Of a stretch of 35,456 nucleotides of DNA, positions 2,746-3,213 are shown in pieces. The DNA lies in contig JAGGVB010000049.1 of the NCBI GenBank assembly GCA_021158245.1, positions 1 through 35,456 on the forward strand, in the 5' to 3' direction. A program made the position numbers and the translations under genes. Numbering within the stretch: position 1 is the stretch's first letter; each line of letters begins with the position of its first letter. The stretch is from a bacterium (GTDB lineage: Bacteria > Zhuqueibacterota > QNDG01). Below the pieces are notes generated by a model, which was given only the letters and a program-made list of their open reading frames with translations, was not told where the DNA came from and ran no database searches.

Positions 2746-2818
2746 CGCGGGGTGGAGCAGCTGGTAGCTCGTTGGGCTCATAACCCAAAGGCCGGAGGTT
2801 CGAATCCTCTCCCCGCTA
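2746..2818 (+). tRNA. Initiator tRNA-fMet (anticodon CAT)
   Basis: A 73-base cloverleaf. The acceptor stem is CGCGGGG/CCCCGCT with a mismatched first pair (C1 against T72). The D-arm is GAGC/GCTC. The anticodon stem TTGGG/CCCAA presents CTCATAA, with the three consecutive G-C pairs typical of initiators. The T-arm is GGAGG TTCGAAT CCTCT, and the discriminator is A at 2818. The unpaired 1-72 position and the GGG/CCC stem mark it as initiator rather than elongator Met tRNA. CCA is not encoded (ACAA follows). Its own promoter lies upstream and a terminator directly downstream. The 3' part from 2793 is duplicated at 3145. Confidence 0.95.
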
Positions 2819-2861
2819 CAAATGAAACCCCGCAGAGAATGTGGGGTTTTTTAATGGGGGA
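2793..2861 (+). repeat. 69-bp direct repeat, copy 1 (tRNA 3' part, terminator, GIY-YIG start codon)
   Basis: Identical, base for base by eye, to 3145-3213. It covers the T-arm and acceptor 3' strand of the tRNA, the terminator, and the first bases of the GIY-YIG gene. The offset between copies is 352 bases. Confidence 0.93.
2825..2852 (+). terminator. Rho-independent terminator of tRNA-fMet
   Basis: AAACCCCGCA pairs with TGTGGGGTTT (one G-U pair) around a GAGAA loop and runs into a T6 tract. It begins 7 bases after the tRNA. It lies inside the 69-bp sequence repeated at 3145-3213, and the start codon of the GIY-YIG gene begins one base after the T tract. Confidence 0.88.
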
Positions 2862-3108
2862 TAATAAATTGTATTATGTTTATGTTTTGTATTCCCAAAG
2901 ATATGATAAAATTTATATAGGCTATACATCTAACCTGGAAGCAAGGCTTGCATCTCATAATGAGTTGTCAAAAAAAGGTTGGACTGTTAGATATCGTCCA
3001 TGGAGACTTGTGTATAAGGAGAAGTATTCGAACAAAAAAGATGCAATGCAGCGGGAGAAAGAGTTAAAGAGTCATAGAGGCAGAGATTTCATCCGTTCGT
3101 TAATTTGA
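2854..3108 (+). CDS. Small GIY-YIG nuclease family protein
   Basis: 84 residues beginning MGDNKLYYVYVLYS. The GIY-YIG signature is YYVYVLY, then KIYIGYTSNLEARLASHN with the conserved Arg, then a second half with RPWRLVYKEKYSNKKDAMQRE, where the Glu fits the metal-binding acid. The size matches stand-alone single-domain GIY-YIG proteins (UvrC N-terminus/YhbQ type). ATG 2854 is chosen because the frame upstream (from 2752) only translates the tRNA gene. That ATG lies inside the 69-bp repeat, just behind the tRNA terminator, so expression would need readthrough or a cryptic promoter; no good Shine-Dalgarno site is seen. Placement between an initiator tRNA and a broken copy of the same tRNA suggests a self-propagating or target-associated nuclease unit. 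That role is inference. Confidence 0.85.
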   Translation: MGDNKLYYVYVLYSQRYDKIYIGYTSNLEARLASHNELSKKGWTVRYRPWRLVYKEKYSNKKDAMQREKELKSHRGRDFIRSLI

Positions 3109-3110
3109 TT

Positions 3111-3213
3111 AGCCTCGTTGGGCTCATATCCGGCAGCTGCCGGACGGAGGTTCGAATCCTCTCCCCGCTACAAATGAAACCCCGCAGAGAATGTGGGGTT
3201 TTTTAATGGGGGA
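3111..3213 (+). pseudogene. Truncated tRNA-fMet copy with duplicated terminator (69-bp repeat, copy 2)
   Basis: The anticodon arm start GTTGGGCTCATA (3117-3128) matches 2771-2782 of the intact tRNA. The 3' side of the anticodon stem and the variable loop are then replaced by a perfect 16-bp palindrome, TCCGGCAGCTGCCGGA (3129-3144). From 3145 to 3213 the sequence is identical to 2793-2861, including the terminator hairpin (3177-3204). The 5' acceptor strand and D-arm are absent, so it cannot fold as a tRNA. After this copy the ATG is followed by a stop within three codons, so the nuclease gene is not repeated. Confidence 0.9.

Follow-up and report, generated by a model that had tools for sequence, protein, structure and literature searches.

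The closest known system to the locus analysed here is SegB, which two reports describe as a free-standing GIY-YIG homing endonuclease of T4 and T6 phages that cuts inside tRNA genes (PMC13096335; PMC2988022). For phage T6, there is a demonstration that a unit consisting of tRNA and segB undergoes recombination-dependent tandem amplification (PMC13096335). SegB is a demonstrated precedent for gene amplification driven by a GIY-YIG nuclease. The bacterial units described below resemble it in placing a GIY-YIG gene among tRNA genes and in amplifying tRNA and nuclease in tandem. However, they lie at tRNA genes of many isotypes on bacterial chromosomes and were not found in the phage records searched, whereas SegB is phage-borne, and the accounts of SegB consulted describe neither hairpin-substituted tRNA copies nor duplication of a terminator.

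Other systems share individual features with these units. REP and REPIN palindromes go together with RAYT transposases (PMC3116915, PMC2817692). As in the present case, the type of palindrome goes with a subfamily of the enzyme, palindromes flank the enzyme gene, and dispersed copies occur. In contrast to RAYT systems, the palindromes studied here lie inside duplicated tRNA sequences and the enzyme gene itself grows in tandem. The protein is also a GIY-YIG enzyme and not an HUH (Y1 tyrosine) transposase, which places it outside the RAYT class. The endonuclease of the cyanobacterial tRNA-fMet group I intron, reportedly the subject of work by Bonocora and Shub in 2001 (listed among the references of PMC3984707), has a PD-(D/E)XK fold. 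That enzyme is encoded in an intron, whereas the present locus has none and its tRNA is intact. A search of the open-access literature found no description of the unit, SegB being the only system relevant to the combination of bacterial GIY-YIG proteins, tRNA genes and palindromes or tandem arrays. The unit looks to be undescribed.

The window, a stretch of 35,456 nucleotides from a bacterium of the phylum Zhuqueibacterota, carries all of the following features on its forward strand. A putative sigma70-like promoter read from the sequence (TTGACA at 2700-2705, a 17-bp spacer and TATATT at 2723-2728) precedes an intact tRNA-fMet gene with anticodon CAT at 2746-2819. This gene is recognized by ARAGORN and by Rfam (RF00005, 63.6 bits), which detects only tRNA in the window. 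A predicted transcription terminator, composed of an inverted repeat and a T-run, follows at 2825-2852, and the nuclease gene (79 amino acids, PF01541) probably occupies 2869-3108. The initial annotation had noted a perfect 69-bp repeat of tRNA-fMet and terminator sequence that recurs 352 bases later with the nuclease between the copies. This is exact, as positions 2793-2861 and 3145-3213 are identical at that offset. The left copy comprises the tRNA T-arm and acceptor 3' strand, the terminator and the probable ribosome-binding site of the nuclease gene, GGGGGA at 2856-2861, which forms the final bases of the repeat. The right copy holds the tRNA 3' end (to 3171), the terminator and a remnant of the ribosome-binding site. 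Relatives of this locus likewise duplicate the terminator along with the tRNA 3' end.

Two details of the initial picture need to be revised. The start codon of the nuclease had been assigned to the repeat, where an alternative ATG is present at 2854. This ATG is unlikely to be the start, as in every close homologue the protein begins where the TTG at 2869 lies. The repeat would therefore stop at the ribosome-binding site and not at a start codon. The second copy of the tRNA had been interpreted as a displaced 3' half. It does contain the tRNA 3' end at 3145-3171, but it also reaches back to the D-loop and carries a hairpin. Positions 3114-3128 (CTCGTTGGGCTCATA) correspond to tRNA-fMet from the D-loop to nucleotide 37. 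A 16-nucleotide perfect palindrome at 3129-3144, TCCGGC-AGCT-GCCGGA (TCCGGCAGCTGCCGGA), then stands in place of tRNA nucleotides 38-47. Partial tRNA copies of this kind, with a hairpin instead of the nucleotides that follow position 37, are referred to as tRNA*, and both left-hand and right-hand versions exist.

The nuclease consists of a single GIY-YIG domain of the UPF0213/SLX1-like type (PF01541, E 3e-17). Active-site residues Y10, Y21-I22-G23, R31 and E68 are invariant in the alignment of homologues. An AF2 model of the protein (mean pLDDT 90.9) finds its best fold matches in UPF0213 and SLX1, and UPF0213 proteins (1zg2, 1ywl) and SLX1 match it in both fold and sequence. SLX1 is a nuclease that processes branched DNA; for the window nuclease, no partner protein is known. 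Values of dN/dS in the family lie mostly between 0.05 and 0.2, and the nuclease is under purifying selection. The association of a UPF0213/SLX1-like nuclease with tRNA genes and hairpins is new to us. A phage origin of the unit was rejected, as neither 50,697 phage records nor IMG/VR yielded a match. Searches of plasmids produced only distant matches of about 42% or less.

Arrangements like that of the window recur far beyond chance, in tens of genomes. The closest nucleases from the same phylum, in five genomes (G005, G012, G019, G032 and G049), are 62-72% identical to that of the window. Each of them follows a tRNA-fMet gene and is accompanied by tRNA* on at least one side. Scanning named genomes yielded 79 loci with close homologues, selected by similarity to the window nuclease, from Cloacimonadota, Ignavibacteria, KSB1, Balneolia and many Bacteroidota. 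A tRNA gene lies within 550 bp on the same strand in 68 of the 79 and on the opposite strand in none. Extra tRNA fragments are present at 61 of these loci, and the fragment bears a hairpin at 54. Because this set had been chosen by similarity, the Pfam model was also used to draw 90 stand-alone GIY-YIG genes without such bias from 60 Bacteroidia genomes. Here 25 genes have a tRNA on the same strand and one has a tRNA on the opposite strand, with an extra tRNA fragment in 18 cases and a hairpin in 15. Among 99 relatives, the close form of the nuclease is found in 7 and the tRNA-fMet pattern in 72. The initial annotation had also named coincidence as the outcome to expect if relatives carried the nuclease and the repeat separately. 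Relatives with the nuclease have it beside a tRNA gene together with tRNA repeats, and the proposal largely withstands this test.

The use of an initiator tRNA as the site, which had likewise been proposed, holds for tRNA-fMet but is too narrow. More distant nucleases are found at genes for elongator Met, Asn, Asp, Val, Ala, Arg, Lys, Leu, Thr and Glu tRNAs. Two layouts are observed. Either the intact tRNA is to the left of the nuclease and tRNA* to the right, or tRNA* is on the left and the intact tRNA on the right. The second layout is seen for Arg, Glu and Asn. At one tRNA-Glu locus (L392, G255:C2:153800-156200), promoter, tRNA-Glu 5' part, hairpin and nuclease occur twice in succession and are followed by the intact tRNA-Glu. 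Elsewhere (L021, G003:C48), a distant GIY-YIG gene is located just downstream of, and on the same strand as, a tmRNA gene that is matched in Rfam.

Extra tRNA 5' halves number 106, from loci that are partly redundant, and in 78 of them a hairpin of at least 6 bp directly follows nucleotide 37. Reduction to 48 non-redundant copies leaves 36 in which the missing tRNA segment can be measured, and it is exactly 10 nucleotides long in 35 of these. The position after nucleotide 37 and the replaced length are constant across phyla. The stems covary strongly, with 25 double-sided changes compared to 3.6 in shuffles, and none of 500 shuffles reaches the observed number. Stem type tracks the nuclease subfamily and not the host genome. 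Mapping stem types to the nuclease tree requires 6 changes, compared to a shuffled minimum of 16; two labels were corrected by eye after automatic labelling, and the automatic labels give 8 changes, still fewer than 16. The idea that the host genome sets the hairpin was rejected because different stems accompany different nuclease subfamilies inside one genome. For example, G105 has TCCGCC-type stems at Met, TCCCGA-type stems at Asn and CCTGCC-type stems at Arg. Some tRNA* copies (L009, L114, L147, L149 and L150) contain second hairpins on the T-loop or acceptor side, some again replacing about 10 nucleotides, which suggests repeated hairpin gain.

The remaining parts of the tRNA* copies also follow a pattern. 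Copies upstream of the nuclease usually retain the tRNA 5' end without the 3' end, and the reverse tends to hold for downstream copies. The T-arm and terminator of each tRNA* match those of the local tRNA, so the repeats are made or homogenised in place. Genome-wide, fMet-type tRNA* copies are not dispersed; they are mostly local, with a few solo copies.

Comparisons with empty sites define where insertion took place. The initial annotation had envisaged that insertion re-creates the tRNA 3' end. Empty sites from related tRNA-fMet loci instead put the left junction in the anticodon loop. A genome with a single intact tRNA-fMet (G054) and a filled relative of the same genus (G032) align through the upstream flank and the tRNA 5' half, with the left tRNA* of the filled site matching up to nucleotide 37. 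A second pair of empty and filled sites within one genus (G015 and G019) shows the same alignment to nucleotide 37. Insertion thus occurred inside the tRNA gene, with its left junction between nucleotides 37 and 38. These base-level comparisons with true empty sites concern left junctions only, and in Sphingobacterium the flanks of right junctions are colinear yet too diverged to give a base-exact junction. As in homing systems, the gene is located in or next to a conserved target, and both empty and filled alleles are found.

A scan of the genus Sphingobacterium adds 30 related tRNA-fMet loci. Hairpins are present at all five loci with the nuclease and at none of the 25 loci without it, which have one to six intact tRNA-fMet genes. 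For independent loci, the chance of such a split would be 1 in 142,506, although these come from related species and are not fully independent. Some of the nuclease-free loci (L409-L434) are themselves tandem arrays of intact tRNA-fMet genes.

Copy number of the units varies between sister species. Sphingobacterium tabacisoli has three units where S. yanglingense has one, and both flanks are colinear at 90-92% identity. Tandem multicopy units, which the initial annotation had suggested looking for, number four at L182, at least six at L230, four at L231, ten in G215 and at least five at L412. As in the SegB system, they consist of tRNA and nuclease and are bounded by tRNA homology. The array at L230 (G104:C1:525500-529500) is associated with elongator tRNA-Met and includes nuclease copies with in-frame stops. 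It is a decayed array in a genome that has an intact one at tRNA-fMet. Many loci (L114-L192) stop at contig ends within or near repeats, and draft assemblies therefore probably under-count the units.

The tRNA repeats, empty sites and tandem units present in relatives lend good support to the original proposal, a minimal unit that amplifies itself and has a tRNA as its site. We consider it rather probable that the window contains one copy of a widespread, homing-like and recombination-driven selfish unit nested in tRNA genes. Such a unit is a single-domain GIY-YIG gene in a tRNA gene, framed by partial tRNA copies in which a hairpin breaks up the anticodon arm, and it most likely works as a free-standing homing-type nuclease gene. 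The nuclease would nick or cut within the tRNA gene; in the branch to which the window belongs, the break would fall at the anticodon loop. It could then be repaired by homologous recombination with the partial tRNA copies serving as arms, so that the nuclease is integrated or duplicated together with tRNA* and one intact tRNA is retained or restored. Crossovers on either side of the hairpin may give rise to the two layouts. The hairpin may destroy the target in extra copies and thereby confer immunity, may be a form of branched DNA that an SLX1-like enzyme processes, or both. Repeated rounds would build tandem arrays, and recombination between copies would leave a tRNA* scar that lacks the nuclease.

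Several observations bear on this homing model. The intact tRNA gene, the presumed target, persists beside a nuclease that looks active, which means that cutting of its own locus must be infrequent or masked. The same hairpins are also found away from tRNA* in some genomes, 65 of the 90 stand-alone GIY-YIG genes in the Bacteroidia sample have no same-strand tRNA nearby, and the phage records and IMG/VR offer no carrier or other mobile vector. These findings count against the model. The unit may nevertheless be transferred between genomes. Nuclease identity across phyla reaches 73%, and the nuclease tree is built on too few columns to test horizontal transfer firmly.

A different view of the hairpins is possible, though we give it clearly less credence. 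The nuclease might make and spread hairpins much as RAYT transposases do REP elements, with the tRNA locus serving as its home. In a tentative form of this proposal, the nuclease itself would write the hairpin, converting exactly 10 bp of the tRNA gene, or its cruciform, into a 16-nucleotide hairpin specific to the subfamily. Hairpins would then mark surplus tRNA copies as inert, and the nuclease would have seeded the abundant palindromes (TCCGNC.., TCCCGA.., CCTGCC..) that are dispersed in Bacteroidota and related phyla. The result would be a REP-like mobile-hairpin system with a GIY-YIG enzyme and tRNA genes as its home. The agreement between stem type and nuclease subfamily, including several subfamilies with differing stems in one genome, would be expected, as would the hairpins at D-loop, T-loop and acceptor positions of tRNA*. 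Palindrome type is tied to enzyme clade, and for type A there is also a link to dispersed copies. Hairpins of the matching type are more common in nuclease-bearing genomes (p=6e-5, or p=0.003 without the centre genome), an association that was tested by counts for type A only and whose effect is modest, also in Bacteroidia. However, dispersed hairpins occur as well in genomes that have no close nuclease (G044, G065 and G221).

Much less probable is a reading akin to type III toxin-antitoxin systems, in which tRNA* repeats act as RNA and the nuclease is a toxin. Two loci (L174 and L150) have, upstream of the nuclease, arrays in which promoter and tRNA* are repeated together and which resemble a ToxI-type array, and a covarying hairpin would also fit an RNA. 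But only one of the 48 non-redundant tRNA* copies retains both tRNA ends, upstream copies being without the 3' end and downstream copies without the 5' end, so tRNA* copies are not foldable tRNAs. A folded pseudo-tRNA was disfavoured for the same reason, as one acceptor strand is absent. In addition, the nuclease itself is part of what is repeated at many loci, insertion and excision leave their signatures at the level of DNA, and the protein has the fold of DNA structure-specific nucleases.

Slightly less probable again is a passive by-product of common tRNA tandem duplication, to which an unrelated GIY-YIG gene and REP-like palindromes striking redundant copies were added. Arrays of intact tRNA-fMet genes free of the nuclease are indeed common in Sphingobacterium (one to six copies), and dispersed palindromes exist. 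Such an origin is difficult to reconcile with hairpins at every nuclease locus and at none of the others in that genus, with the invariant position and 10-nucleotide replacement across phyla, with strand biases of 68:0 and 25:1, or with the same design at unrelated tRNAs. Integration by a site-specific integrase acting in trans, with the repeats as att sites and the nuclease as cargo, is highly improbable; direct repeats of the tRNA 3' end do flank the nuclease gene as in genomic islands, but the roughly 350-bp unit encodes only the nuclease and no integrase that would use the tRNA 3' end as an att core, the repeats span D-loop to terminator with a hairpin in one copy, only nuclease and tRNA* are repeated in tandem units, and the left junction is at nucleotide 37/38.

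If the homing model holds, these units, at about 350 bp, would be among the smallest self-amplifying DNA units known. They would exploit essential genes and yet leave them intact, and the amplification of bacterial chromosomal genes by a nuclease would become directly testable. The unit links three puzzles: the clustering of small stand-alone GIY-YIG genes at tRNA genes, the arrays of broken tRNAs, which also break assemblies, and the origin of palindromes. Its enzyme is a possible source of the short palindromes that are abundant in Bacteroidota-like genomes, and if the nuclease does write hairpins, the unit would be categorically new.

The genome of the window has a second locus (G000:C201) with a complete tRNA* and terminator but without the nuclease. 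This locus precedes a response-regulator-like gene, and 273 bp of it are 95% identical to the right end of the window locus (3111-3381, forward strand). In a congener (G001), nuclease and tRNA* are upstream of what is apparently the same response-regulator-like gene. The second locus looks like a scar from recombination between copies, with the window copy situated elsewhere. Dispersed palindromes (TCCGGCAGNNGCCGGACAC) and arrays of CCGTCAAAAGCCGGACACG are also present in this genome and its congener (L193-L204), and their stem is shared with the tRNA* hairpin of the window. Another abundant dispersed palindrome, TCCGATAGCTATCGGA, is found in a Terrimonas genome (G106).
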